Virus record (IMG/VR): IMGVR_UViG_3300033141_006339
Location: 1-20,724 of that record
DNA: 20,724 bases
Source of the DNA: a virus
Direction: 5' to 3' (one strand)
Each line of letters begins with the position of its first letter. Within the stretch, counting starts at the first letter, position 1. A program made the position numbers and the translations under genes. Positions 1 to 15,933 of this stretch are shown one piece after another. The notes below the pieces were generated by a model. The model saw only the letters and a program-made list of their open reading frames with translations. It was not told the origin of the DNA and searched no databases.

Positions 1-303
1 GCCCTCGGCGCGGGCGAAATTCGTGCGCCCGACATAGATTGCCCGCTGCCCCGCCGGAAGGTTCTTCTCCTCGACCACCTCGAAGTGCGCGCCGGTAACT
101 TTCTCAAGGTAGGTGCATAGCTCCCTGACGGCCGTGCGCTCCGGCGGAGTCGCATCGGAGGATCGGACAATTACGACCAGAGCTTGCCCGTTTTCGGCGA
201 TCGGGAACGAGCCGTCCTTTTTTGCAGCGCCCAGCTCAGGCGCCGCAAAAGCCGCAGCATTCACCAAAGTGAAAACGAGAATGCCAAACCACATCCGATA
301 CAT
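1..303 (-). CDS. Secreted DUF4838/GH67-N-terminal-domain protein, 5' part only
   Basis: An open frame runs from the ATG at 301-303 to the window edge without a stop (101 codons), so only the N-terminus is present. The start is well supported: AAAGGAG lies 8 nt upstream. Residues 1-21 form a signal peptide (short basic start, hydrophobic core, AAAFA-A cleavage region). The following roughly 80 residues match the N-terminal alpha/beta domain found in front of DUF4838 and GH67-like glycoside hydrolases: a strand (ALVVIV), then the helix pattern AVRELCTYLEKVTGAHFEVV, then the strand AIYVGRT. The protein is probably exported and acts on carbohydrate; the catalytic domain lies outside the window. 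It is likely host chromosome, which would place the phage boundary between here and about 1150. The domain call is from motif recognition only. Confidence 0.7.
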   Translation of the reverse strand, partial: MYRMWFGILVFTLVNAAAFAAPELGAAKKDGSFPIAENGQALVVIVRSSDATPPERTAVRELCTYLEKVTGAHFEVVEEKNLPAGQRAIYVGRTNFARAEG

Positions 304-381
304 GCTCACCGCTCCTTTCCCACATCCCAACACTTCCCAGCCAAGCATACAACATGAGCAACGCGCCAATCCACACAAGAC

Positions 382-670
382 TCAGGCCGGCTGCCCGGGC
401 CCTTCGGATTCTTCCGCCCTGGCGCTTGCACCAACAAGCTCGCTCACTGCCGCCCAGACCCCTATCCGCGATGGGCTCCACGGGCAGGGGTTCATCGCCG
501 AAGGCACATTCGATGACGACCCAGTCCGCCGAGCGGCGCGATAATTCAAGGTAGGCGGCACGGGTCGCCTCCAGATGGCTCACGCTTCTTTCGTGGATGT
601 CCGTGCCGCCCCGCCCTATCAGGTCTCACAGTCGCCCCGCTCTTCCGCAGCCAACAACTTGCCCGCGCAT
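382..670 (-). pseudogene. Thymidylate-kinase-like C-terminal remnant, frameshifted
   Basis: Three minus-strand frames join into a string resembling the C-terminal half of dTMP kinase. The pieces are LLAAEERGDCET, then (after a shift near 622-630) GRGGTDIHERSVSHLEATRA followed by AYLELSRRSADWVVIEC, then PVEPIADR, and, after one extra base near 450-456, VWAAVSELVGASARAEE ending at a TGA at 382-384. In dTMP kinases the matching region contains the LID (Arg-rich, DRIE-like), an F/YHxRV-like helix and the WVVID strand. No intact P-loop half is seen upstream. Either it is a decayed gene at the phage/host junction or the sequence has indel errors. The family assignment is tentative and based on pattern only. 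Confidence 0.35.
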
Positions 671-1151: not shown

Positions 1152-2009
1152 TTATACAAGATGTGGCAGGGGCGGCCCTCCTTTGTTGTGGCAGTGGTCG
1201 ACGCGGTCTACAGGTCTACCATCGTCATAAATCATCCTGAAGCGGCCTGGCAGGGCACGCTCTATTACATCCGGGCGGCGAGGGGCGGTTTTGTCAGCGG
1301 TGCCCAGATACGTGGGTTTAAGGCGGTCTTGATGGCTCGTCAAAAGGGTTTTAATGGCGCGTTGATGGATATCGTCTGGGGCCATCTCGGCGACGATTTC
1401 TGCGGGCGGGCGGGTAAGTTTGCCTCGTAGCCACTGGCGCATCAGGCTGCGTTCTACGATGCGTTCGTCGGGCTTGACGCCTTTCAGGTGAAAGAACAAG
1501 GGGCCGGGGCTGCACGTGGCTTTTACGACCGTTTCGGGCCGGGCTGCCGAGCCTCCCCGCCAGCAGAAGTCTCTCATCGCCCGCCGGTTGACAAAAACGT
1601 GGCAGCGGTCGTAGTGGTGCAGGCGCTGGGTTGTGTGGTTGAGGTCTCCCCACATCTCACAGAGCTGTAGACGCACGATAGGGGCGTCGCCCTCGGCAAT
1701 CCGGCGCAGCAGGTGGGCGTTGTATTCGCAAAGCACGTCGTCAGCGTCCAGCCAGAAAAGCAGCGGGCTGTCGCAGGCGAGGGTGAGCAGTTGATTGCGC
1801 GCCTGCACCCAGCCCATTTGCGGGCCGGGGTTGCGCCACCAGTAGATGTTCTTGTGTCGGAGAGCCATGTTCAGGGCCACATCGGGGGTTTCGTCGGTGC
1901 TGGCGTCGTCGAGCACCAGGATGTGGTCGAAGTGCGCCGCTATGCTTTCCAGGCAGAAGCGGAGCGTGTAAGCATCATTGTGGGCCGGGATGAGGGCTGT
2001 CAGGTGCAT
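1152..2009 (-). CDS. GT2-family glycosyltransferase
   Basis: This 285-aa protein has a GT-A fold N-terminus: strand LTALIPAHN (3-11), the nucleotide-binding segment ILVLDDAST (30-38) with DDAS, and the metal-binding LFWLDADDVL segment (84-93) with DADD in place of the usual DxD. About 100 residues of probable acceptor-side sequence follow, ending with a basic tail. It should transfer a sugar from a nucleotide sugar; donor and acceptor cannot be read from the sequence. The start has GGAGG 7 nt upstream and overlaps the 3' end of the preceding gene by 10 nt, so the two are translationally coupled. It is the last gene of the minus-strand late operon. Unlike its two upstream GT neighbours it has no tandem-repeat insertion. 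Confidence 0.85.
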   Translation of the reverse strand: MHLTALIPAHNDAYTLRFCLESIAAHFDHILVLDDASTDETPDVALNMALRHKNIYWWRNPGPQMGWVQARNQLLTLACDSPLLFWLDADDVLCEYNAHLLRRIAEGDAPIVRLQLCEMWGDLNHTTQRLHHYDRCHVFVNRRAMRDFCWRGGSAARPETVVKATCSPGPLFFHLKGVKPDERIVERSLMRQWLRGKLTRPPAEIVAEMAPDDIHQRAIKTLLTSHQDRLKPTYLGTADKTAPRRPDVIERALPGRFRMIYDDGRPVDRVDHCHNKGGPPLPHLV

Positions 2010-2929
2010 CGGATGACCTCCATGTATGGCAGGATGCGGTGCCTGGCCCAGGAGACGGCATCATGGCCAGTGGGCATGAGCGGCTGGCCGTCGCCGAAAT
2101 CGCAGTTGGCGGCGGCGAAGCGGTCGGAGGCACCGGGCTTGTTGCCGCAGGAGCTTATGTGGGCGAAGCCCTGTCCCCAGCGATAGACATAGGTGATGGC
2201 CTCGGATTCGGGGATTTTGTAGAGTCTGCCTGCGCGCTCGAAGGTGGCCATGAGGGCGCGCGCCTGGCCGCTGTTGGTGGGGGGATAGCCGCCTGACTCA
2301 AGCGCTTCCTGGCGGCGGAATATCATGGTGCCCTCGAAGACGTTGTGATGGACGCCGTGATACATAGGCTTGAGGCGTGAGGCTTGCCCCGTCGTATTCG
2401 GGGCTTGCCCCGTCGTTTTCGGGGCTTGAGGGTTGAGGTTTACCCCGTCGTTCTCGGGGCTTGCCCCGTCGTCTTCGGGGCTTGCCCCGTCGTCCTCGGG
2501 GGTTGCCTCGTTGTTCTGGGGGCTTGAGGGGGCGAGGCCGACGACGTAGTGGGCGGCGCGGGATTTGACGCAGCCTGCGCCTTCGCGCAGGAGGGCTTGA
2601 ACGCCTTTTGAGAGGTGGTCGGGCAGGTAGAGGTCGTCGTCGTCCCAGTGGGCGACAAGCGGCGTGGAGGCCGCTTCCAACAGGGCCTGGCGCTTGTGGC
2701 CGAGGGTCGGGTAACGTTCTTTGGCGTTGATGATAGTTACGGGTAGCCCGTCTCCGCCCCCAATAATGGGCTTCGGTGCGTCATTCAAGACAAGCATCCG
2801 CTTGTTTGGATAATCCTGTAGCAGGAAGCAGGCGACGGCGTCGCGCAGGCGCTTGAAGCGCCCGTAGGTGGGGCAGAGGCAGGTAACGGCAGGGCAATCA
2901 CTCGCTATGGCATTTGCCATATCAGGCAT
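2000..2929 (-). CDS. GT2-family glycosyltransferase with a repeat-derived insertion
   Basis: This 309-aa protein starts with a GT-A domain: VTCLCPTYGRF (15-25), strand RMLVLNDAP (44-52), HKRQALLEAA (78-87) and the metal site HWDDDDLYLPDHL (94-106). The C-terminal half holds TMIFRRQEALESGGYP (201-216) and WGQGFAHISS (251-260), typical of GT2 enzymes. Residues about 135-188 between the two halves are not glycosyltransferase sequence but translated repeat units (PEDDGAS, PENDGVN, APKTTGQ, SRLKP), from the array at 2367-2530. Adjacent units are read in different frames, so units are joined out of phase yet no stop arises. The insertion falls after the metal-binding motif, probably in a surface loop. 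The start overlaps the upstream sulfatase-like gene. Donor and acceptor are unknown. Confidence 0.85.
   Translation of the reverse strand: MPDMANAIASDCPAVTCLCPTYGRFKRLRDAVACFLLQDYPNKRMLVLNDAPKPIIGGGDGLPVTIINAKERYPTLGHKRQALLEAASTPLVAHWDDDDLYLPDHLSKGVQALLREGAGCVKSRAAHYVVGLAPSSPQNNEATPEDDGASPEDDGASPENDGVNLNPQAPKTTGQAPNTTGQASRLKPMYHGVHHNVFEGTMIFRRQEALESGGYPPTNSGQARALMATFERAGRLYKIPESEAITYVYRWGQGFAHISSCGNKPGASDRFAAANCDFGDGQPLMPTGHDAVSWARHRILPYMEVIRCT
2367..2530. repeat. Mixed family A/B tandem repeat array inside a glycosyltransferase gene
   Basis: About seven units of the 21-22-nt family B repeat (core CCCCGTCGTTNTCGGGG; units begin near 2382, 2403, 2438, 2459, 2480 and 2502) are bracketed and interrupted by heptamers GGCTTGA/GGCGTGA/GGGTTGA (family A). 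Each B unit has complementary ends, CCCCG...CGGGG, around a 7-nt loop. The array is wholly inside the coding frame of the glycosyltransferase and supplies about 54 residues. Confidence 0.9.
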
Positions 2930-3737
2930 AGCCTAAGGCCTCCAGCTTGGTTAGGACATCTGATTCGCAGTTTTGGGCTTCACGTTCTGCGCTACCGTCT
3001 AACCTGAGCCAGGGGACGGCATAGAGTTGGGGGTAGCGCCAGTGGCCTTCGTGGCCGAACTTACCGCCGTCCTCGCCCAGCATCTCGCCGTGGTCGCTCG
3101 TAACAATGATAGTGCCGGTCAATTGTCCGGCTAACTGCCGGGCCGCGTCCCAGGCCAGGGCGAGGTTCATGCGGTATGCGCGCTTCAGGAGCGTCCAATC
3201 AAAAGCGCCTTGCCTGACGGCCACATCGGGTCGGGTGAGCGCATGGCAGGCGCGGCCGAACTCGGAATTGGAGCGGCCCCAGCGGCTGACAGCCAGAGGG
3301 ATTGCGCCGATGTATGGGCTGTGCGGCTGGAGGTAATGAATTACTACGCGCCTGCCTTCAAGGCGGCCCATCTCCAGGTAAGTGAGCACGACTCCGTTGA
3401 CGCTCAGGGGGTGCACGGAGGGGATGGCCAGCCGGGTGAAGCGCGACCAGTGCCGCTTCCAGATGCTGATTAGTTCCACTTGGAGGCTGCGCTTCTGCAC
3501 CTCGCGGTCAACGACAGGGTTCGCAGTGAAGTACAGGACATTCAGGCGCTCCAGCAGCGGCCCGACTTTCGCTATCCACTGGGGGGTGCAGACGCCGGGG
3601 GAGCGCACAGCGGGGGCATCCGTGCCGGTAACTTCGCGTAAGGCATCCGCCCGGCAGGCATCCAGGACGATGAGCACGTCCCAGTCGGCCCGCTCGAGCA
3701 ATTGTAATTGTTCCTTATCCCCAGGCCCCGGCCCCAT
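2922..3737 (-). CDS. Sulfatase / alkaline-phosphatase superfamily protein
   Basis: This 271-aa soluble protein has the metal-binding and nucleophile region WDVLIVLDACRADALRE (19-35), strand RRVVIHYLQPHSPY (129-142), and the distal metal ligands IVTSDHGEML (211-220) and FGHEGHW (227-233). This is the pattern of sulfatases, phosphoglycerol transferases and related alkaline-phosphatase-fold enzymes. There is no CxPxR formylglycine motif; Cys28 of DACR is the candidate nucleophile position. It is shorter than classic sulfatases (around 450-550 aa) and lacks a signal peptide, so it probably acts in the cytoplasm. Similar short DACR proteins are often found beside glycosyltransferases, as here. A likely role is adding or removing a sulfate or phosphate-linked group on a glycan; the substrate is unknown. 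A GAGAGGG lies 10 nt before the ATG. Confidence 0.75.
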   Translation of the reverse strand: MGPGPGDKEQLQLLERADWDVLIVLDACRADALREVTGTDAPAVRSPGVCTPQWIAKVGPLLERLNVLYFTANPVVDREVQKRSLQVELISIWKRHWSRFTRLAIPSVHPLSVNGVVLTYLEMGRLEGRRVVIHYLQPHSPYIGAIPLAVSRWGRSNSEFGRACHALTRPDVAVRQGAFDWTLLKRAYRMNLALAWDAARQLAGQLTGTIIVTSDHGEMLGEDGGKFGHEGHWRYPQLYAVPWLRLDGSAEREAQNCESDVLTKLEALGYA

Positions 3738-4150: not shown

Positions 4151-4215
4151 GTTTACCTCGTCATTCTTCGGGCTTTACCTCATTGTTTCTGAGGTTTACC
4201 TCGTTGTTCTCGGGG
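4151..4215. repeat. Three diverged family B repeat units between holin and spanin genes
   Basis: Three tandem units begin near 4151, 4173 and 4194 (GTTTACCTCGTCATTC..., CTTTACCTCATTGTTTC..., GTTTACCTCGTTGTTC...). On the minus strand they encode the last residues of the holin-like protein, its TGA stop (4180-4182, created by a C-to-T change inside a unit: AACAACGAGG became AACAATGAGG), and the Shine-Dalgarno sequence of the next gene. Confidence 0.85.
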
Positions 4216-4440
4216 TTGTTCCATGGCTGGCGGCGATATCTGGAGCAGGCCGCCAGCGGACTTCTCCCCTGCATCCTCTATCGCTATGCCCAGAATGTTG
4301 GCGAAGATGACCGCCAACGCACCCGCCAACGCCACGCTGTCCATCTGTAGATTCAGCTTTGCGTTCAGCACCGGCACAAGAATGCCCAGCACCATCAGCC
4401 AGAACTTGCGAGAAGCCAGCAGACTCTTTATTACTCGCAT
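4180..4440 (-). CDS. Holin-like two-helix membrane protein
   Basis: This 86-aa protein has a basic N-terminus, a first transmembrane segment around residues 12-28 (KFWLMVLGILVPVLNAK), a second around 35-53 (VALAGALAVIFANILGIAI), then an acidic/amphipathic stretch and a polar tail. This size and topology fit small phage holins, and the neighbours fit a lysis cassette. AAAGGAG lies 7 nt before the ATG, just after the TGA of the 54-aa membrane protein. The last 10 or so residues (REQRGKPQKQ) are translated family B repeat and the stop codon lies in the repeat, so the original C-terminus has been replaced or extended. No endolysin is seen in the window. Confidence 0.65.
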   Translation of the reverse strand: MRVIKSLLASRKFWLMVLGILVPVLNAKLNLQMDSVALAGALAVIFANILGIAIEDAGEKSAGGLLQISPPAMEQPREQRGKPQKQ

Positions 4441-4453
4441 TGTTCTACTCCTT

Positions 4454-4618
4454 TCATCGCAATCTCAGGTATAGCAGCGCCGACAGAACGACCAGCAGCA
4501 GAAACAGCCCGGTAAGCACTACGGCGTTGCGGAGGCCAAATCCCCATTCCTTTACCAGCGCTCTCACAAACCCGCAGTGCTCATACATCCACTTACACAA
4601 TCGTTTTCTGAAACTCAT
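4454..4618 (-). CDS. 54-aa single-pass membrane protein
   Basis: This short frame of 54 codons begins at the ATG at 4616-4618 and ends at TGA 4454-4456. It is supported by a strong Shine-Dalgarno sequence (AGGAGGAG, 6 nt before the ATG) and tight packing: it starts inside the 3' end of the large glycosyltransferase gene and ends 13 nt before the holin-like gene. Residues 1-30 are basic and aromatic (MSFRKRLCKWMYEHCGF...); residues 31-51 form one transmembrane helix (NAVVLTGLFLLLVVLSALLYL); it ends in RLR. It probably belongs to the lysis cassette, for example as a second holin, antiholin or pinholin-like protein. Function is inferred from size, topology and place only. Confidence 0.65.
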   Translation of the reverse strand: MSFRKRLCKWMYEHCGFVRALVKEWGFGLRNAVVLTGLFLLLVVLSALLYLRLR

Positions 4619-7421
4619 TTTGCGCTCCTCCTGTAAAATGGTTCAGAAGCGTTTCCACGGCGCGGTTGCGGGCGTCCCAGTGGCCGGGCTGGGCTGCCAA
4701 TGCACGACTGTCCTGTTTCAGGTCCACCCAGCGTTTGCCCAGCACGCCGGGCACCAGGTGATACCCAGGCCGGCCGCCTGATATCATCAGGTTGATGTAG
4801 ATGTCGTCGCAGCGAAATAAGGCTTGAGGCGTGAGGCTTGAGTCTTGAGGTGGCACCAGGGGCACGCGCTCCAGCAGTTCGCGGCGCAGTAGCATGAAGC
4901 GACCTTTCACCAGGTCCACGCGGCGGTCTTCGGCGGAGCCGTTGATGTGTCGGGCGCCCTTGTAGCTCTTGCCGGGCACGCGCTTCCACCCAAAGAAGCC
5001 CACTATGCCGTCGGGGCATTTGGAGCGGCAGGCATCTATTGCATCTTCGAGCACCTTCTCATCTCGCAGCAGCAGGTCATCATCTATTGTGCAGACGAAC
5101 TCGGTCTCGGCCGCTGAAGCCAGCCACCAGCGGGGGAAGCAGCCCAGGTTGGTGTCGCTCTGAATGAGCGAAAGGCTTGAGGCGTGAGGCTTGAGGCTTG
5201 AGGAATCAAGAGGCGCACCATTGTTCCAGAGGAAGATGCGGGGGCGGGCGGTCTGTGCGGCCAGGCATTCCAGGATGGGGCCGATGTTCTCCGGCCGCTT
5301 CCAATTCAACAACAGCACTGTTATGGAGGCGTGAGGCGTGAGGCGTGAGGCTTGAGGCTTGAGGCTTGCCCCGTCGTTTTCGGGGCTTGAGGCTTGAGGC
5401 GTGAGGCTTGAGGCATGAGGCTTGGGGCTTGAGGCTTGCCCCGTCGTTTTCGGGGCTTGAGGCGTGTTCGTTGCGGTCTCTGCACTTAATACTTTTTCCT
5501 CTTTTCTGCGCTCGTTGTCTTCTATGACGAAACGGTCGGCGCGCTCATTTACGATAATACGGCCTCCGGGATTCAGCAGGCGCTGTGCCACCCGGCGGCA
5601 CTCGGCCTGCATCTCGCCGCCGATGAGTATCAGGTCAAATTGTCCGAGGTTTGCCGTAACGGGCCGGTTCACGTAATCCGGTCCGAGCCGGCACTTGGTG
5701 AGACGCACGCCAAGCTCCTTGCAGATGTCCCACCAGTTGTCGGCGCGATGCCCCGGCATCTCGATGCAGTGGATTTCGGCATCGCACCAGAGGCGGCGGA
5801 GCAGGATAGTGGATTCGCCGGGCCGCCACTGGAGAATTCTCAACGCAGAGGACGCAGAGTTTACCCCGTTGTTCTCGGGGGACGCAGAGTCAGAATCACC
5901 CAGGGGCTTCTCTGCGGTCTTTGCGACCTCCGCGCTGAGGTCTTGGAGCCAGGCATGGTCGGGGTGGGGCCGCGTGATGGGGGCGTTCCTGCCGCATAGA
6001 TGCGTGAAAATTGCATCCTCACGGGAGCGGCCCCAGGGTGGGGGAGGCTTGAGGCTTGAGACTTGAGGCGTGAGGCACTGCAATTCCTCTGGTGTGAGGC
6101 GCTTGAGGCAGTAGGGCTTGAACCGCAAATCAAAGGTCTCTTTGTGCAGCAGGCGGCTCATGCTGACGGCGATATTTTTCCAGATTTCCTTTCCGGCACC
6201 GGGCACGGGGTTCTGGCTGCGGTAGAGATGGCGCGTGAACACGTCCCGGCTCACCAGGGTGGGGATGTCCATCAGGAACGCCTTGACGGCTAAGGCTTGC
6301 TCGCTGAACCCCCAGCGCCCGGCGGTGTCTTCCCACAGGTAGCCGGTGGGTTCGCTGAGCCTCTGGGCCAGGGAACGGCTCACGAAGTAGGCTGCGCCCA
6401 TCATGCACGGCACCCGCAGGTAGGGAGCGGTGTTGCCGTCGGGGTCGCGGGGGTAGAGGCGGTATTTGGGCTGGAGGCCGTCCCTGCGGTTGTAGTAGAG
6501 GTCGGCCCCTAGCCCGAAGAAGCTGCGGTCGGCGCGCACGTCCCGGCTGGCGGAACAGACAAGGGCATCGCCCTCGGCGGCTTTCGCCGCGAGTAACGTC
6601 AGGCTTGAGGCGTGAGACTTGAGGCTCCGGGCTCCAGGCTCCAGGCTTGAGGCTTGAGGCGTGAGGCGTGAGAGGTGAGAAGATATCTTTGCGCTGAGGC
6701 TTGCCACGTTGTTCTCGAGGCTTTCTTTGAATTCGTCGCGGCAGCATTCCAGGAGTTCGTCGGCCAGGGGAAAGCGCATGTGGGCGTCGTGAAAGCTGAT
6801 GACGTCCCCCGTGGAAGCGGCATAGCCCGCGTTGCGGCTGGCGCCCACGCCCCGGGGCACGTCGTGCCGGATAAGCTTCACCACGGGGGAGCCCGCCAGG
6901 TTCGGGGGCAGGGAGACGGGGGGCTGGCTGCCGTCGTCAACGATGATGATTTCCAGCCGGTCCTGCGGATAGGCCGCCAGCGCGCTCTGGATGGTCTTAA
7001 ATAGTTCCTCGCCCTCGTTATAGGCGGTGATAACCATGCTCAGGGACGGCAGAGTCCAGGCGTGAGGCTTGAGGTTTACCCCGTCGTTCTCGGGGCGTGA
7101 GGCGTGAGGCTTGAGGCTTGAGGCTTGCCCCGTCGTTTTCGGGGCGTGAGGCTTGAGGCTTGCCCCGTTGTTCTCGGGGTTTACCCCGTTGTTCTCGGGG
7201 GGCGCAGAGACTTCATAATAAGGGCACTTGACGGGCGCGCAAACCCGCCTGGGGACGGTTGCGCCGCCCTTTTCCGGGTGCTGGCAGCGGACGGCACAGC
7301 AGCCCTGCCGCTTCGCCCATCGGCACAGCGGATATACCGTAGGCCGGGGTTTACCCCGTTGTTTTCGGGTCCACCACTCAGCCGCCTTTTGAAACCTCTG
7401 AAGTTTACCTCGTTGTTTCAC
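4593..7421 (-). CDS. 942-aa fusion: Cys-rich segment, GT27-like glycosyltransferase, methyltransferase-like domain, second glycosyltransferase
   Basis: The order is as follows. Residues 30-70 are Cys-rich (C33, C41, C42, C46, C61, C66). Residues about 123-435 are a GT-A domain with MVITAYNEGEE, EIIIVDDGS (157-165), FHDAHMRF with DAH (212-214), PCMMGAAYFVS, GRWGFSEQAL (368-377) and RHLYR (397-401). This order resembles polypeptide GalNAc-transferases (DxH, WGGEN-like, HxxR). Residues about 525-635 look like a Rossmann methyltransferase fold (ALRILQWRPGES, FDLILIGGEMQ, LLNPGGRIIV). Residues about 699-905 form a second GT with VCTIDDDLLL (776-785). Linkers at about 75-121, 235-278, 448-461, 513-523, 650-698, 740-752 and 858-867 are translated repeats. 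The start is GTG at 7419-7421, with a repeat-borne GAGGT 7 nt upstream. Catalytic specificity is inferred. Whether the product is one chain or is processed at the linkers is unknown. Confidence 0.75.
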   Translation of the reverse strand: MKQRGKLQRFQKAAEWWTRKQRGKPRPTVYPLCRWAKRQGCCAVRCQHPEKGGATVPRRVCAPVKCPYYEVSAPPENNGVNPENNGASLKPHAPKTTGQASSLKPHASRPENDGVNLKPHAWTLPSLSMVITAYNEGEELFKTIQSALAAYPQDRLEIIIVDDGSQPPVSLPPNLAGSPVVKLIRHDVPRGVGASRNAGYAASTGDVISFHDAHMRFPLADELLECCRDEFKESLENNVASLSAKISSHLSRLTPQASSLEPGARSLKSHASSLTLLAAKAAEGDALVCSASRDVRADRSFFGLGADLYYNRRDGLQPKYRLYPRDPDGNTAPYLRVPCMMGAAYFVSRSLAQRLSEPTGYLWEDTAGRWGFSEQALAVKAFLMDIPTLVSRDVFTRHLYRSQNPVPGAGKEIWKNIAVSMSRLLHKETFDLRFKPYCLKRLTPEELQCLTPQVSSLKPPPPWGRSREDAIFTHLCGRNAPITRPHPDHAWLQDLSAEVAKTAEKPLGDSDSASPENNGVNSASSALRILQWRPGESTILLRRLWCDAEIHCIEMPGHRADNWWDICKELGVRLTKCRLGPDYVNRPVTANLGQFDLILIGGEMQAECRRVAQRLLNPGGRIIVNERADRFVIEDNERRKEEKVLSAETATNTPQAPKTTGQASSPKPHASSLTPQASSPENDGASLKPQASRLTPHASITVLLLNWKRPENIGPILECLAAQTARPRIFLWNNGAPLDSSSLKPHASSLSLIQSDTNLGCFPRWWLASAAETEFVCTIDDDLLLRDEKVLEDAIDACRSKCPDGIVGFFGWKRVPGKSYKGARHINGSAEDRRVDLVKGRFMLLRRELLERVPLVPPQDSSLTPQALFRCDDIYINLMISGGRPGYHLVPGVLGKRWVDLKQDSRALAAQPGHWDARNRAVETLLNHFTGGAQNEFQKTIV
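4821..4850. repeat. Family A heptamer array inside the second GT domain
   Basis: Four heptamers (GGCTTGA, GGCGTGA, GGCTTGA, GTCTTGA) lie in the coding region of the 942-aa protein. They are read on the minus strand as part of DSSLTPQAL, near residues 858-867. Confidence 0.85.
5174..5202. repeat. Family A heptamer array inside the second GT domain
   Basis: Four heptamers (GGCTTGA, GGCGTGA, GGCTTGA, GGCTTGA) encode SSLKPHASSL (about residues 741-750) between two core strands of the second glycosyltransferase domain. Confidence 0.85.
5328..5466. repeat. Long mixed A/B array forming the linker before the second GT domain
   Basis: Runs of GGCTTGA/GGCGTGA/GGCATGA heptamers alternate with two nearly identical family B units (beginning near 5364 and 5434, core CCCCGTCGTTTTCGGGG). 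The translated product (about residues 650-698) is a Ser/Pro/Ala/Lys-rich linker exactly between the methyltransferase-like and the second glycosyltransferase domains. Confidence 0.9.
5842..5941. repeat. Family C and B repeats before the methyltransferase-like domain
   Basis: CGCAGAGGACGCAGAG (family C) is interrupted by one family B unit at 5859-5880. Opposed family C-like sequence (CTCTGCGGTCTTTGCGACC) lies at about 5911-5929. All are in frame and supply SASPENNGVNSAS (about residues 511-523) at the domain junction. Confidence 0.8.
6046..6076. repeat. Family A heptamers at the end of the first GT domain
   Basis: Four heptamers (GGCTTGA, GGCTTGA, GACTTGA, GGCGTGA) encode CLTPQVSSLKP (about residues 449-459), just after the first glycosyltransferase domain. 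Confidence 0.8.
6602..6720. repeat. Family A array plus a diverged B unit inside the first GT domain
   Basis: Heptamers GGCTTGA/GGCGTGA, plus a GGCTCCA variant, run over about 75 nt and are followed by a diverged B unit (6699-6720, CCACGTTGTTCTCGAGG). They encode about residues 235-272, a Ser/Leu/Lys/Ala-rich insertion that splits the glycosyltransferase fold between DELLECCRDEF and GDALVCSASRDV. Confidence 0.85.
7059..7201. repeat. Mixed A/B array forming the N-terminal linker of the fusion protein
   Basis: Family B units begin near 7074, 7123, 7158 and 7179, separated by heptamer runs. They encode residues about 75-121, including PENNGVN, APKTTGQ and SSLKPHA, between the Cys-rich segment and the first glycosyltransferase domain. 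Confidence 0.9.
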
Positions 7422-7447
7422 GGGGTTTACCTCGTTGTTTCACGGGG
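7349..7447. repeat. Family B units carrying stop, Shine-Dalgarno and start codon
   Basis: One unit lies at 7349-7369 and two near-identical units at 7403-7425 and 7425-7447 (GTTTACCTCGTTGTTTCACG...). On the minus strand the pair holds, in order, the TGA of the Cys-rich gene (7440-7442), GAGGT (7429-7433) and the GTG start of the 942-aa gene (7419-7421). Confidence 0.85.
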
Positions 7448-7841
7448 TTTGTCCTTCTAATTCATCGCTTATTTCCACGGCGATTTCAGGTTCCAGGGCG
7501 CCCAATGCGCTCAAGGTCTCAAGCACGTCGTCAACGTGCTCCTGGCTCCGTCCGCGCAAACGTTCCAGCACGAGCGGCTTGAGCCGCTCGCGTTGTCCCT
7601 GAAGTTTGCGCCTCTTCTGCTCTCTTGCCACAGCTTCCATGTCCACGGGTTCAAGTCCCGCCCACCTGCCGGCCGGGCAATTCTCATCCGGCCCTTCCAT
7701 AAAGGCATCGTCCCTGAGAGGCGCGCCGGTTTCACCTGTCCTGTCGCTGAAGCAGCATTTCGGCCAGGGCCACGCGCCCGTATTGCGGTTGAACTCGCAT
7801 CGAGCGCACCTGCGAATCCTCGCCAGCTTAATTCCGTTCAT
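7440..7841 (-). CDS. Small Cys-rich, probably zinc-binding phage protein
   Basis: This 133-aa protein starts at the ATG at 7839-7841 rather than further upstream: AGGG lies 7 nt before it and it begins 10 nt after the stop of the 920-aa tail gene. Residues 12-15 are CARC, followed by CC (29-30) and C55 in ENCPAGRW, a likely single zinc site. Residues 60-133 are charged and helical (REQKRRKLQGQRERLKPL..., ending in an acidic tail). The TGA stop lies in a family B repeat. The Cys spacing resembles that at the start of the next gene product (CRWAKRQGCCAVRC). No named family is recognised; a tail-assembly or glycosylation accessory role is possible. Confidence 0.7.
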   Translation of the reverse strand: MNGIKLARIRRCARCEFNRNTGAWPWPKCCFSDRTGETGAPLRDDAFMEGPDENCPAGRWAGLEPVDMEAVAREQKRRKLQGQRERLKPLVLERLRGRSQEHVDDVLETLSALGALEPEIAVEISDELEGQTP

Positions 7842-7851
7842 GATTTCCCTC

Positions 7852-10614
7852 TCACGTGTAAACCGTTGCAGTCGGGTCGCAATCGGGGCAGCCTGCGCTG
7901 TACAGGCTATAATTCCCCGTGGGGCAGCTATCGGTAGTCGCCGTCTTGTGATAGACGCACACATCTGTGCCCAGGCCGACATCAAAACTCCACGTTCCTG
8001 TCGAGCATGTTATGCCGCCGCTGCCGCACCCCATGGCGGGTGTTCCGGTGTTCGTCCACGTGCAGTCACTCAGCCACGTCCATTGCCAGAGTCCATCGCA
8101 CACGTCTGGCGGCGAGCCGCAACCCGTAGTGATTTCGGCGTAGACGGTTGTGGGGCAGTTGTTGGCGCACCACTCATCCGTCGGGCAGCCCGGCCCGGCG
8201 GTAGTGGTAGTGGTCGGGGGCAGCGTGGTAGTAGTGGATGGCGGCTGCGTTGTGGTGCTGGTCGTGGTGGGCGGGCAGCCGAAGACAACTCTTACTGAGC
8301 AGCCTTCGCACAAATCCGTGCCGTCGGCGACGCACTCCCCGTAAAGCCCCCCGTTATCGCAGCAGCACAGCCAGGCGCTGTCTGTTTCATAACCCAGATA
8401 ATACTCTCCCAACTGGTAATAAAGCAGTTGGACGCGGTAACAGCCGGGCAGAAGGCAGCCTGCCTGCGTGGTGGTTGTTATTTCCCCGGGGCATTGCACG
8501 CATTCGACGCGAACAGCCCAGCTACCGAACGGATTTTCCGCCCCTCCTTGCCACCAGCCATTTTCCTCGTGATATCTAAGTTCATACTGGCCTGCGGCGT
8601 CCTCACAGCCGGAACCGTAACCTGAACATTCAGTATCAACCATTGTTACGGTGGCAACGCATCTGCCTCCTGCCTCTCTGGCCAGTTCCTCGCAGGCGGA
8701 GCAGAGGAACTCCGGCGCTTCGGTCGTAGTCGTGCTTGTGGTCGGGCCGGGGGCCTCGGTGGTTGTCGAGGTCGAGGGCGCTTCGGTCGTGGTGGATGTG
8801 GGCGTGCCCACCTCGCCCTGGTATGCGCTCGCCAATACCTGGCAATCGTTGACGTCCTCGCTCAAATCAAGCTCCCGCCGGGCGAAAAGGTTCTGTTCCA
8901 GCCGCCGCTTCAGTTCGCTGTAGCCCTCCAGCATGAAGAAGGTGTTGGCGACGGTTATCTGCGTTTCGTTGCGGTCCAGGTCGTAGACGACTTCGACGGC
9001 ATTGATTTGCAACTCGTCCCATCGCATGGGGTCGGGTGGCAGGGTGGTCGTGCTCGTGCCGGGTGCGGCGGTCGTGGTTGCGGGGGCGAGGGTGCTGGTG
9101 CAGCCCAGGTTCAGGACGTTGTAGCGCACGTCAAGGCCGAAAGCGGACGGGTCAACTTCGTCGCAGACCAACACGCCCTGTCGGCGCACGTCCTTGCGCT
9201 GGCGCAGGATGCGCTCGGCCAGGATACCCATCGCCACCTCGTCGTCGGCGGTGCCGGGACGGGGCCAGCTCGTGGTGTGCTTGAAGGCCGGGTCGTAGAT
9301 GATGAGCGTGTTCTCGTAGCCGTAATGCCAGTAGGCATCGCCGTCCGGCCCCGCCTGCACGGTGAAGGGTACGCGGGCGAAATACCAGCCCCAGAGTTTC
9401 TCGCCAGGGTCGAGTGACGGGTTCTCGTAGAAGCTGATGATGCCCGTGACGCGGTTCCAGGAGGGCAGAGGCACTCCGGGCGTATCGGGCACGTAAACAT
9501 ATTTCGCTCCGGCATCGGTGCCCTTGTAGATGCGGGGGCCCTTGTCCCAGGTCAGGTATCCTTGGGGTGGGGTGAGGGTATTGCCGGGGTCAATCTCGCG
9601 CCAGGTGGGCAGGCGTTTTGTCTGGCAGACGTGGCGGAAGGCGGCGGGCCAGTCCATCCAGGGCGCGGCCACCAGTTCCAGTTCGCCCGCATCGCCCAGG
9701 GCCGGGTTGCCCGTGCCCTCGATGTTGGCTGGTTTCTCCTCGACTGTCCTGTCCGTTCCCTGCACGATGACGGTCGTGCAGACGCCGTCCAGGCTCCAGT
9801 CCAGCTTGTTGTCCAGCAGCACGTAGTTCTTGCCGGCCTCGTCCTGCCAGTGGCCCAGCTGGCCCGCCTCGATGTTCCGCACGGGGCAGGCGTCCAGGTC
9901 GGTGAGGACCAGGTTGCCGCTCTCGGGGTCTACATACCAGCCGTAGAATCCGCCCGCCAGGCCCAGGAGCATGTCCAGCGCCTGCGCCACGGGCGTGTTG
10001 TCCACACTGAACTCGCCGATTACCGTGTCCAGGGCCAGCCAGTCGGCGGCGGTATATCCGGCGATGTCGCCGGCGGTGAGATATGTGTCGGTAACACAGC
10101 AGGGGTCGCCGTGGTGGCCGCTGATGTCGCTTCCGCCTGCGGGGATGCCAAGGGCGTGTTCCAGGATGTCAACGGCTATCTCGCCTGCTGTCCACTTGCC
10201 GCCGTCTGCGCCGGGAGAGTCCTCGCCGCTCTCGTTGTTGCACGTGTGCCCGCGCCGGTTCCAGACGTAGTGCCCGCGTCCGTTGATGCAGACCGGCTCG
10301 TTTTCCAGCCGGAACCGTTTGCCGCTTGCGGTGCAGTTCCAGGATTCCTCGGCGATGCCGCCGGGGGCGATGTCGGTTATGTCGCCACGGAACAGCACCG
10401 GGCCGGGGTAGCCGCCTGAGGTGGTGGTCGTGGTGCCGCCGCTTTCGGCCACCTGGCAGATGAGGACGCTGTCCCACATCCGGGGCATGCCGCAGGCGTC
10501 GTGCCGGCCGTTGTAGCGCAGCAGGGCCGTCCACGGCTCCAGGTAGGAGCGTTTGAGTTGAAGGACCCTTAAATCCGTCCTCAAGACGCCGTTGATGTAG
10601 ATTTGAACGTCCAT
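7852..10614 (-). CDS. 920-aa tail hub/receptor-binding protein with Thr-rich linkers
   Basis: The N-terminal half looks like a phage baseplate-hub/late-control type protein: LFRGDITDIAPGGIAEESWNC (74-94) then KRFRLEN, a TAGEIAVDILEHALGI helix, and LLGLAGGFYGWYVDPESGNLVLTDLD, where the second hub subdomain starts. From about residue 510 onward Thr/Ser/Pro/Ala tracts separate domains: about 509-529 (ATTTAAPGTSTTTLPP), 602-635 (STSTTTEAPGPTT...), 712-716 (ITTTT) and 779-809 (TTSTTTQPPSTTTTLPP...). A short TTTTT also lies at 61-65. Between the later tracts are Cys-rich domains (CSACEELAREAGGRC; WLCCCDNGG; CPTDEWCANNC), which look like disulfide-stabilised external modules. It is probably exposed at the tail tip and contacts the host. 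The tracts resemble mucin-type O-glycosylation substrates. GGAG lies 2 nt upstream of the ATG, close for an SD. Hub assignment is from motifs; receptor binding is inferred. Confidence 0.7.
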   Translation of the reverse strand: MDVQIYINGVLRTDLRVLQLKRSYLEPWTALLRYNGRHDACGMPRMWDSVLICQVAESGGTTTTTSGGYPGPVLFRGDITDIAPGGIAEESWNCTASGKRFRLENEPVCINGRGHYVWNRRGHTCNNESGEDSPGADGGKWTAGEIAVDILEHALGIPAGGSDISGHHGDPCCVTDTYLTAGDIAGYTAADWLALDTVIGEFSVDNTPVAQALDMLLGLAGGFYGWYVDPESGNLVLTDLDACPVRNIEAGQLGHWQDEAGKNYVLLDNKLDWSLDGVCTTVIVQGTDRTVEEKPANIEGTGNPALGDAGELELVAAPWMDWPAAFRHVCQTKRLPTWREIDPGNTLTPPQGYLTWDKGPRIYKGTDAGAKYVYVPDTPGVPLPSWNRVTGIISFYENPSLDPGEKLWGWYFARVPFTVQAGPDGDAYWHYGYENTLIIYDPAFKHTTSWPRPGTADDEVAMGILAERILRQRKDVRRQGVLVCDEVDPSAFGLDVRYNVLNLGCTSTLAPATTTAAPGTSTTTLPPDPMRWDELQINAVEVVYDLDRNETQITVANTFFMLEGYSELKRRLEQNLFARRELDLSEDVNDCQVLASAYQGEVGTPTSTTTEAPSTSTTTEAPGPTTSTTTTEAPEFLCSACEELAREAGGRCVATVTMVDTECSGYGSGCEDAAGQYELRYHEENGWWQGGAENPFGSWAVRVECVQCPGEITTTTQAGCLLPGCYRVQLLYYQLGEYYLGYETDSAWLCCCDNGGLYGECVADGTDLCEGCSVRVVFGCPPTTTSTTTQPPSTTTTLPPTTTTTAGPGCPTDEWCANNCPTTVYAEITTGCGSPPDVCDGLWQWTWLSDCTWTNTGTPAMGCGSGGITCSTGTWSFDVGLGTDVCVYHKTATTDSCPTGNYSLYSAGCPDCDPTATVYT

Positions 10615-10630
10615 TGCTCCACTTCACTTT

Positions 10631-10706
10631 GGAGGCTTGAGACTTGAGACCTGAGGCTTGAGACTTGAGACCGGAGGCTTGAGGCTTGAGACCTGAGGCT
10701 TGAGTG
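10631..10706. repeat. Family A heptamer array, left flank of the four-helix-bundle gene
   Basis: About eleven heptamers (GGCTTGA, GACTTGA, GACCTGA, GACCGGA variants) run tandemly between the start of the 920-aa gene and the plus-strand gene. Their orientation is opposite to the array on the other side of that gene (11200-11232). The last heptamer provides the -35 hexamer of the plus-strand promoter. Confidence 0.9.
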
Positions 10707-10728
10707 AACAGCGGGCAGCACGTATAAT
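10700..10728 (+). promoter_or_regulatory. Sigma-70-type promoter of the four-helix-bundle gene
   Basis: TTGAGT (10700-10705) and a perfect TATAAT (10723-10728) are separated by exactly 17 nt. The ATG is at 10738, so initiation about 7 nt past the -10 box gives an almost leaderless mRNA; no Shine-Dalgarno sequence is visible. The -35 box is part of the last GGCTTGA heptamer. Confidence 0.7.
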
Positions 10729-10737
10729 TGCCCGGTC

Positions 10738-11100
10738 ATGAGAGACCACAGGAAACTCAAGGCTTTCACGCTGGCAGACCAGCTTGTCAGAGACATCTAC
10801 GCTGCTACGGCCACTTTCCCGCACGAGGAAATCTTCGCCCTCACAGCCCAGATGCGTAGAGCAGCCGTGTCGGTGCCTGCCAACATTGTTGAAGGGTGCG
10901 CTCGCAACAGCTTGAAGGAGTATCTCAACTTCCTCAATATGGCGTTCGGCAGCCTGCGGGAACTGGGTTATTACGTTCATCTTGCCCATCGTCTCGGTTA
11001 CCTCCCAGAAACAGAGAAGTCCAGGCTGGTGAACTTGCATGACGAAACCTGCCGGGTGCTCTCCGGCCTGATGCAATCGCTGCGCAGGCGGCAGGTGTAG
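10738..11100 (+). CDS. Four-helix-bundle protein of the 23S rRNA-intervening-sequence (S23/IVP) family
   Basis: This 120-aa protein has the full hallmark sequence: LKAFTLADQLVRDIYAATATF (helix 1), EEIFALTAQMRRAAVSVPAN followed by IVEG (helix 2, residues 31-53), KEYLNFLNMAFGSLRELGYY (helix 3), HRLGYL and a C-terminal helix. The family is encoded inside intervening sequences of 23S rRNA in some bacteria and is related to the Avd accessory protein of diversity-generating retroelements. Its molecular role is unclear; it forms pentameric helical bundles that can bind nucleic acid. It is the only plus-strand gene of the phage block, has its own promoter, and is bounded by inverted heptamer arrays, so it looks like a moron or small mobile unit. 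The ATG sits 10 nt after the -10 box. Confidence 0.9.
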   Translation: MRDHRKLKAFTLADQLVRDIYAATATFPHEEIFALTAQMRRAAVSVPANIVEGCARNSLKEYLNFLNMAFGSLRELGYYVHLAHRLGYLPETEKSRLVNLHDETCRVLSGLMQSLRRRQV

Positions 11101-12286: not shown

Positions 12287-13180
12287 TTACGGCTCGCCAA
12301 GTGTGTAGCTCATGTCCACGCCGCTTTCGTCCACGCCGGCCTCCAGGCGCGTCCTTGAGGTGACGAGCGCGCCGGGCATGGCGGGTTCGGCGCTTTCGTC
12401 CACGTAGAGGCGCGGCAACTGGATGCCGAGTTCCCACCCCGACGGATGGCTCAGGACGGCGCTGAAACTCAAGGTGCCGCCGCTTCGGATTGCGGCGTTG
12501 AAAAGGTCGGAGTCGTTAAGCTTTGTCAGTTCAAGGCTTACGGCCCGCTGGCCTGCTATCAGGTAGGCCAGAAGGCCGCCGCTGCTCGGGCCTGCCCGCA
12601 GGTTGTTGCGCACCGTTATGGTGCACGCCTCCACGTCGCCGACGGGCGATGCGTCCATCTGGAGCGTTGCGCCCTGGAAGCAGAACGGGACGGGAGTGAG
12701 GCCCGAGTAGTCGAAATCCTCCTCGCTCAGGGCGTCGTTTTCCTGCTCTTGCCTGCCGCGCAGGGCCATGTGCCACAGCACGGCGCTGCCCCGCCCGCTG
12801 CACTCCAGCCTTGCGGACTCCACCATGCACCCCAGGTGGCGGCGCGGGTCGGGGGGCGTGTAGTGGTCCACGCAGTAGCTGTGCAACTGGCCGCCGGTGC
12901 GCTCCAGCGCCATGTCCAGCAGGAACTCCGCCACCTCGGGGTATAGCAGCGCGCTCCAGCGGCCCTCCACCACCTGGAGGTAGCTCAGGTGGACGCTTCG
13001 CTGCCAGCCGCCCACAAGCGTGCGGGGCCGCAACTTGCGGTCGGCGGCCTTCACCGTGTAGCCGTCTGCGAACACGGGGATGCAGTGCCACTGGGGCGAG
13101 GGGGGGCACTGCCCCCACGTCGCCTCCCGGCAGGCCCGCACGTGTCGCCGCGCGCCCTGGTGAACGCCTGTTACGGCCAT
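12287..13180 (-). CDS. Tail tube-like protein
   Basis: This 297-aa protein is beta-rich with alternating polar/hydrophobic strands and features of siphophage major tail tube proteins of the Phage_tube type. These are the N-terminal VEGRWSALLYPEVAEFLLDMAL region (about 72-93), the SGRGSAVLWHMALRGRQEQE strand pair (about 129-148), and a repeated second half (VEACTITVRNNLRAGPSSGG; SLELTKLNDSDLF; GTLSFSAVLSHPSG). The two-half layout suggests duplicated tube domains. AAGGGA lies 5-9 nt before the ATG. It follows the neck-like gene across a 134-nt gap that holds an inverted repeat. The presence of a tube protein argues for a long-tailed (siphovirus-type) particle even though the head genes are Mu-like. 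Confidence 0.7.
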   Translation of the reverse strand: MAVTGVHQGARRHVRACREATWGQCPPSPQWHCIPVFADGYTVKAADRKLRPRTLVGGWQRSVHLSYLQVVEGRWSALLYPEVAEFLLDMALERTGGQLHSYCVDHYTPPDPRRHLGCMVESARLECSGRGSAVLWHMALRGRQEQENDALSEEDFDYSGLTPVPFCFQGATLQMDASPVGDVEACTITVRNNLRAGPSSGGLLAYLIAGQRAVSLELTKLNDSDLFNAAIRSGGTLSFSAVLSHPSGWELGIQLPRLYVDESAEPAMPGALVTSRTRLEAGVDESGVDMSYTLGEP

Positions 13181-15441: not shown

Positions 15442-15933
15442 CTACCCAGCGGCCGTCGTGGTCGTCGTGGGGGCCAGGGTAGTCGTGGTCGGCTCGGTCC
15501 AGCTGCGGCCCTCCAGCACCGCCGCATCAATGGCAACCCAGCACTCGTGCGAGCCCTCCACCCTGTCAACTACACCCACAGGGATGTCATAGGTTACCTC
15601 GGCAGCATCCGCCGCCACCGTCTGGTCATCCACCGCATAGGCCCGCGCAGCCAGGGCGCTCTGGTCCAGGATGCTCTTGCAGTTGAAGCGGTAGCGACCC
15701 CTGCGCCTGACGACCACGCACAGCTCACCATCCGAGCCGTTCCGGTTGTCGGCCCCTTCCGTAGCCACGCCCACAAAAACCAACCCGGCCGCATCCTCTG
15801 CGGGCACGGCGTAGCCCGAACCGTTGCAGCAAACCAGAGAGCCAGCGAAGATGCGCTCCCCGGCAGCGACCGGTATCGCAAGCAGGTCGCCCAGGCTGTA
15901 CTGCGTGCTTCTGTCCTGTGTCAGTGCAGTCAT
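15442..15933 (-). CDS. DUF2190-like capsid decoration protein with a Thr-rich tail
   Basis: This 163-aa protein has the DUF2190/decoration beta-barrel pattern: AIPVAAGERIFAGSLVCCNGSGYAVPA (about 19-45), LVFVGVATEGADNRNGSDGE (51-70), VVVRRRGRYRFNC. It ends in a C-terminal tail TEPTTTTLAPTTTTTAAG (146-163) with nothing after it, so the tail would hang free on the capsid surface. This tail has the same Thr/Ala/Pro composition as the linkers of the 920-aa tail protein and would be a good O-glycosylation acceptor (inference). AAGGAGG lies 7 nt before the ATG. It sits between scaffold and capsid genes, as in other Mu-like head modules. Confidence 0.75.
   Translation of the reverse strand: MTALTQDRSTQYSLGDLLAIPVAAGERIFAGSLVCCNGSGYAVPAEDAAGLVFVGVATEGADNRNGSDGELCVVVRRRGRYRFNCKSILDQSALAARAYAVDDQTVAADAAEVTYDIPVGVVDRVEGSHECWVAIDAAVLEGRSWTEPTTTTLAPTTTTTAAG
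15449..15497 (-). repeat. Thr-codon tract at the 3' end of the decoration gene
   Basis: A run of GGT/CGT/GGTCGT on the plus strand encodes the Thr/Ala/Pro tail of the decoration protein. Similar tracts occur in the 920-aa tail gene at about 8189-8278, 8711-8810, 9030-9090 and 10417-10440, which suggests shared selection or exchange of a mucin-like tract. Confidence 0.75.

Follow-up and report, generated by a model that had tools for sequence, protein, structure and literature searches.

A candidate virion-glycosylation cassette with a GT27-like glycosyltransferase in a Mu-like phage

The minus-strand genes running from position 7421 to position 1152 of a phage genome probably form a virion-glycosylation cassette, in which soluble phage-encoded enzymes would O-glycosylate threonine tags on the particle surface. 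The window, that is, the whole stretch of DNA that was analyzed, is the linear virus record IMGVR_UViG_3300033141_006339 of 20,724 bases. More tentatively, we propose that a GT27-like, mucin-type initiating transferase O-glycosylates portable Thr-rich tags, which have been repeatedly attached to different outer virion proteins and would give the phage a mucin coat. The initial annotation of the window had suggested mucin-type O-glycosylation of virion proteins, and this interpretation is supported in part: the likeness to GT27 and the linkage of the cassette to tract-bearing genes stand, whereas the specificity of the tracts and the sulfatase reading do not.

Gene content of the window

Pfam and PHROG matches identify the head and tail genes as Mu-like, and all of them lie on the minus strand (Table 1). 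The tail gene is followed by a small ORF, the glycosyltransferase fusion, three small ORFs with hydrophobic stretches, the sulfatase-fold gene and two GT2 genes. In relatives, extra methyltransferases and additional GT2 genes are present. Since these relatives turn up not only on viral contigs but also on MAG contigs whose titles name Planctomycetota or Brocadiaceae, the host of the window phage is probably a planctomycete.

Table 1. Features of the window; residue numbers refer to the fusion protein
Feature	Position	Strand	Remarks
GT2 glycosyltransferase	1152-2009	-	SunS-type peptide S-glycosyltransferases as best solved relatives, followed by GmaR
GT2 glycosyltransferase	2000-2929	-	best solved relative PglI
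Alkaline-phosphatase/sulfatase-fold enzyme	2922-3737	-	superfamily metal motifs kept
Glycosyltransferase fusion, 942 aa	4593-7421	-	PF00535, 7.5e-21; PF09258, 1.1e-6
GT27-like GT-A domain	residues ~124-480		PF00535
Methyltransferase-like middle	residues ~525-650		weak O-methyltransferase matches only
GT64/EXTL2-like GT-A domain	residues 701-929		PF09258, 1.1e-6; EXTL2, 5.4e-8 (Foldseek)
RHLYR	6219-6233	-	residues 397-401; invariant His, candidate third metal ligand
WGFSE motif	6300-6314	-	residues 370-374
FHDAHMRF, DxH metal-binding motif	6771-6794	-	DAH, residues 212-214
Small protein, between tail gene and fusion	7440-7985	-	kept in several relatives
Tail protein, 920 aa	7852-10614	-	Thr-tract and Cys-rich modules
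Thr tract PPTTTSTTTQPPSTTTTLPPTTTTTAGPG	8188-8274	-	tail protein
Thr tract TTTTQAG	8458-8478	-	tail protein
Thr tract GEVGTPTSTTTEAPSTSTTTEAPGPTTSTTTTEAPE	8710-8817	-	tail protein
Thr tract TSTLAPATTTAAPGTSTTTLPPDP	9028-9099	-	tail protein
Short Thr run VAESGGTTTTTSGG	10411-10452	-	tail protein
Tail tube protein	12287-13180	-	PF18906; no Thr tail in window
Capsid decoration protein	15442-15933	-	phrog_1731, 2.2e-35
Free C-terminal Thr tail	15445-15498	-	decoration protein, ending in TEPTTTTLAPTTTTTAAG
Major capsid protein		-	phrog_371
Protease, Mu I-type		-	PF10123
Portal		-	PF06074

As first annotated, two GT2 genes and a sulfatase-fold gene share the strand of the fusion, but the sulfatase reading fails. 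A formylglycine sulfatase was considered for this gene and rejected, the C/S-x-P-x-R motif being missing: the site reads CTPQW in the window and has no Arg, Asn replaces Cys in the related locus L009, and C-x-P-x-R does not occur. The Cys is not conserved, and a Thr, the candidate nucleophile, is invariant. The protein is probably not a sulfatase; a Thr kept without the sulfatase Cys and Arg is what we would expect of phosphoethanolamine- or phosphoglycerol-transferase-like enzymes. The similarity of the 1152-2009 product to SunS-type enzymes (~1e-4; NCBIfam 8.3e-8, far below the family cut-off) is confined to approximately its first 100 residues. A point in favor of the virion-glycosylation cassette is the likeness of both sibling GT2 genes to enzymes acting on peptides or glycoproteins; points against it are that no sugar-nucleotide gene was seen within the 20,724-base window and that the window's copy of the fusion has an insertion.

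That fusion carries many in-frame DNA repeats that are absent from relatives, one of them after the D-x-H motif. A repeat-derived insertion falls within the catalytic domain (residues ~218-270) and might impair this copy. Because of these insertions and a poor full-length AlphaFold model (pTM 0.35), the case for the family is stronger than the case for activity of the window's own copy. Two kinds of repeat, arrays of a heptamer, (GGCTTGA)n, and a hairpin unit of 21 nt, CCCCGTYGTTYTCGGGGCTTG, are dispersed over 2346-2531, 4151-4224, 5322-5482, 5859-5889, 6582-6693, 7046-7209, 7349-7463 and 10621-10718. Within the fusion and GT2 genes they preserve the frame but are read in differing reading frames. 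The window has 30 matches to the heptamer and 12 to the hairpin, 12 related loci have none, and the pattern resembles in-gene invasion by palindromic repeats. In other relatives, genes are interrupted at linker positions by different repeat-like sequences (GTGTSTPLGSLSP; VPQGGTMAGKPEGLPAEASAK; LQTRNSKPGTL; L021 9004-10254, L011 472-1599, L012 1-1498), so such invasion may have happened more than once. On the opposite strand, the gap separating the tail gene from the next gene upstream holds a gene for a 23S_rRNA_IVP four-helix bundle (10738-11100, plus strand; PF05635, 4.8e-31). It adjoins heptamer repeats, is absent from the relatives examined, and is perhaps a mobile insertion connected with these repeats.

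Relation of the first GT-A domain to GT27

The initial annotation described a first GT-A domain with VDDGS, DAH, WGFSE and HLYR, all of which are present, VDDGS at residues 161-165; it overlooked the methyltransferase-like middle, the GT64-like second transferase and the repeats. Because profile search, fold search and invariant motifs agree on GT27, we describe the domain as GT27-like in predicted fold and metal site, a likeness short of GT27 membership or GalNAc specificity. A profile of 10-12 family members compared with the PDB retrieves GT27 polypeptide GalNAc-transferases first (E 1.4e-12 and 5.6e-13), followed by the chondroitin synthase K4CP at ~1e-8, and a profile of the broader family A9 likewise places GT27 first. 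Two sequence controls behave differently: the top PDB match is chondroitin synthase for a related chromosomal enzyme, and SunS-type enzymes lead for the sibling GT2 gene 1152-2009. The GT27-like domain of a relative, L005, yields an AlphaFold model with a mean pLDDT of 84 and a pTM of 0.87. The best 50 listed Foldseek matches of this model are all GT27 (query TM 0.60-0.73), with alignments spanning 310-341 columns against the 318-aa domain at 16-23% identity. Both checks thus put GT27 ahead of the polysaccharide synthases, and the alternative of a lipid- or polysaccharide-acting GT2 family was not borne out.

All 12 family members have the Asp and His of D-x-H, the later His and the four named residues of W-G-x-S-E, and the DAH of the fusion aligns with the DSH of GalNAc-T2 in the profile alignment. 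Sequence similarity to GT27 is mostly limited to the donor-binding half: most profile matches span positions 4-181, only that to PGANT9 reaches 6-233, and the half containing WGFSE and HLYR, used alone as a profile against the PDB, gave no match. A C-terminal ricin-type lectin domain is usual in GT27, if not universal; the Pfam scan of the fusion found none. The best match in the NCBIfam search was MftF, far below its cut-off, and no GT27 model was reported. The low identity to GT27 and the missing lectin domain weaken the cassette reading, and the label "mucin-type", meaning GalNAc on Thr, is drawn purely from homology.

With two GT-A domains in one chain, the fusion could instead be a polysaccharide synthase of the heparosan or chondroitin type, making a free or capsule-like polymer. 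A full-length fold search does return heparosan synthase 2 (3.8e-10) and K4CP (4.4e-9) over both domains; the model behind it is the poor one, however, and the two-domain matches have an rmsd of ~25 Å. Given also that the isolated N-terminal domain prefers GT27 and that a methyltransferase-like stretch separates the two transferases, we consider this improbable.

Another possibility is that the cassette modifies lipopolysaccharide or another host surface glycan, as serotype-converting phage genes do, with the Thr tracts unrelated to it. GT2 enzymes often have such a role, and PHROG matches point to GtrB-like O-antigen conversion. A GtrB-type O-antigen glucosyl carrier was rejected, since its C-terminal transmembrane helices are missing: no transmembrane helix was found in the fusion or either GT2 gene (maximum 19-residue hydropathy 0.83-1.11). 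The enzymes of the window all look soluble, which fits modification in the cytoplasm before lysis. A planctomycete chromosomal enzyme (L189 8891-9823), a candidate cellular relative with 26% identity to the GT27-like domain, has D-G-H, W-G-G-S-E and the later His and adjoins kdsB and a probable waaA, which suggests a role in lipopolysaccharide. This relative, sharing the motifs of the phage family in such a neighborhood, weakens the cassette reading and favors host-surface modification. Its first PDB match is nevertheless chondroitin synthase and not GT27 as in the phage family, and the constant place of the fusion behind the tail gene, together with the recurrent pairing of the enzyme with Thr-tract virion proteins, two divergent lineages included, also argues against host-surface modification. 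Modification of the host surface therefore seems unlikely to us, although less so than polymer synthesis.

Threonine-rich tracts on outer virion proteins

Residues 1-600 of the tail protein are conserved among relatives (53-61% identity), and its C-terminal third is variable. Five Thr-rich tracts are present, one more than the minimum of four previously noted, the addition being TTTTQAG; the free Thr tail reported for the decoration protein was also recovered, with the Thr-rich end sequence TTTTLAPTTTTTAAG. The tail protein reaches 14 Ser/Thr in a 20-aa window, a value attained in none of 2000 shuffles of the same protein. The decoration protein, shuffled likewise, has 11 Ser/Thr in 20 aa (p = 0.001) and a run of five Thr (p = 0.001). 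Clustering is unremarkable in most other genes of the window (p > 0.25), with TerL a weak exception (8 Ser/Thr in 20 aa, p = 0.0095, no Thr run).

We mapped nine virion proteins over 13 distinct phages, scoring TTTT within the last 25 residues. Such tails occur on the decoration protein in 13 of 13 phages, on the major capsid protein in 3 of 13, on the tail tube protein in 3 of 12 and on an unassigned protein between tube and tail in 4 of 12, giving 23 of 50 for these four; the head-tail proteins gp36 and gp37, the portal, the protease and TerL have none (0/59). Among these related phages the restriction is significant (Fisher p = 5e-10; p = 3e-5 with the decoration protein left out). Decoration, capsid and tube proteins are, as a rule, exposed on the outside of phage particles.

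At the protein level, at least nine Thr in 16 aa are found at 17 of 20 family loci and at 1 of 35 control loci; a strict DNA pattern for the tracts, which matched only five family and lineage records, was too strict, and protein-level counts were used. The fusion lies directly downstream of the tail gene in all nine related records that reach past this gene, contigs ending inside it being left out and the cases coming from related, not independent, phages. An enzyme of ~30-40% identity also lies shortly behind Thr-tract ORFs in two divergent lineages, L190/L192 (a virus record) and L188 (a planctomycete genome). In the former, a separate phage lineage with identical copies in two records (L153/L190 8457-9659), the GT27-like enzyme consists of a single domain and a short extra C-terminal stretch, and a homologue of the GT2 gene 2000-2929 comes just after it.

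The co-occurrence of tracts and cassette proposed at the outset thus holds in one direction: the cassette is present in every relative whose record continues beyond that gene's end, the tail gene being the last before it, but the reverse link is weak. A general dependence of Thr tracts on the enzyme was rejected, as only two of 50 long tract-bearing virus records matched, one of them by a partial GT2 match, leaving one convincing enzyme. GT2 genes appear in 22 of 50 tract-bearing records against 2 of 12 random records of at least 16 kb (2/28 overall), a suggestive difference in small samples not matched for length, which we did not use. Among isolated phages (INPHARED), no match covers more than 39% of the GT27-like domain.

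Tracts are widespread in unrelated phages without the enzyme, which weakens the cassette reading and would be expected if they acted only as linkers and tails, flexible or sticky, and became glycosylated incidentally if at all. In tail proteins they indeed space Cys-rich modules. The free tails of decoration, capsid and tube proteins, however, join nothing, which speaks against a pure linker role, and free TTTT tails are limited to outer or unassigned proteins; we give the linker explanation little credence.

A Cys-rich C-terminal module, C..G.YS...C..C...VTVY, recurs after Thr tracts on different virion proteins (the C-terminus of the window tail protein; L005 2507-4483; L162 8126-9325; L188 1109-1576). 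By its sequence it looks shuffled between genes and is possibly an adhesin module. Downstream of the fusion in L010 (11235-12674), a 480-aa protein with no Pfam match contains approximately 12 near-perfect TTTTTEAPPP repeats.

For the glycosylation cassette we infer the following catalysis, donor, acceptors and order of steps. In the host cytoplasm the GT27-like domain would transfer a sugar from a nucleotide-sugar donor to Thr, and to Ser, where outer virion proteins have Thr/Pro/Ala-rich tracts. In the window phage the acceptors would be the free tail of the decoration protein and the tracts of the tail protein; in relatives they would further include the tails of the major capsid and tail tube proteins. 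Lengthening of the glycan would fall to the GT64-like domain and both GT2 enzymes, and the sulfatase-fold enzyme would put on or take off a phosphate-linked group. Capsid and tail would then wear a mucin-like coat, of presumed benefit to the phage.

Comparison with known systems

The phage domain shares with GT27 enzymes (GalNAc-T1, T2, T4, T10 and T12, Toxoplasma GalNAc-T3, PGANT9) the catalytic fold, D-x-H, a W-G-x-x-E-like segment and a later His, and the candidate acceptors are Thr/Pro/Ala-rich. It differs in being soluble, remote in sequence and fused to methyltransferase-like and GT64-like parts, and in having no lectin domain. Heparosan and chondroitin synthases (PmHS2, K4CP) also have two GT-A domains per chain, and K4CP is the first non-GT27 match in the PDB; by contrast, the N-terminal domain of the fusion is nearer GT27, a middle domain is added, and the second transferase is GT64-like. 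This C-terminal domain resembles EXTL2, a eukaryotic enzyme of animal glycosaminoglycan synthesis.

A bacterial GT27 annotation, as a candidate only, exists for Bacillus firmus GB1 (PMC3178493). Our search, in mainly open-access literature, found no paper that describes phage enzymes of a GT27-like type or phage virions with Thr tags. The cassette reading is supported by precedent from mycobacteriophages: according to PMC12363180, citing Freeman 2023, Che8, Corndog and Myrna glycosylate their own capsid and tail with phage-encoded enzymes. The Che8 cassette consists of a GT2-methyltransferase fusion (gp108), a GT2 and a GT25 (gp110), and it resembles the present one in its GT2-methyltransferase fusion and in being phage-encoded, with capsid and tail as the expected targets. 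Homology of gp110 to the GT27-like domain was considered, and no similarity was found.

Virion glycosylation is already known from a small number of actinobacterial phages, which use different enzymes; Che8 does so without sequence tags, its capsid and major tail proteins having no Thr tails. If the proposal is true, a working virion-modification system with GT27-type initiation would exist in a non-eukaryotic setting. What is new here is that the acceptor can be read from the sequence, as Thr tails come and go on outer proteins, and that the enzyme is near in fold to the best-studied initiators of protein O-glycosylation. Together these make acceptor, donor and benefit directly testable, offer a rule to predict glycosylated phages, and could yield compact soluble O-glycosylation enzymes.
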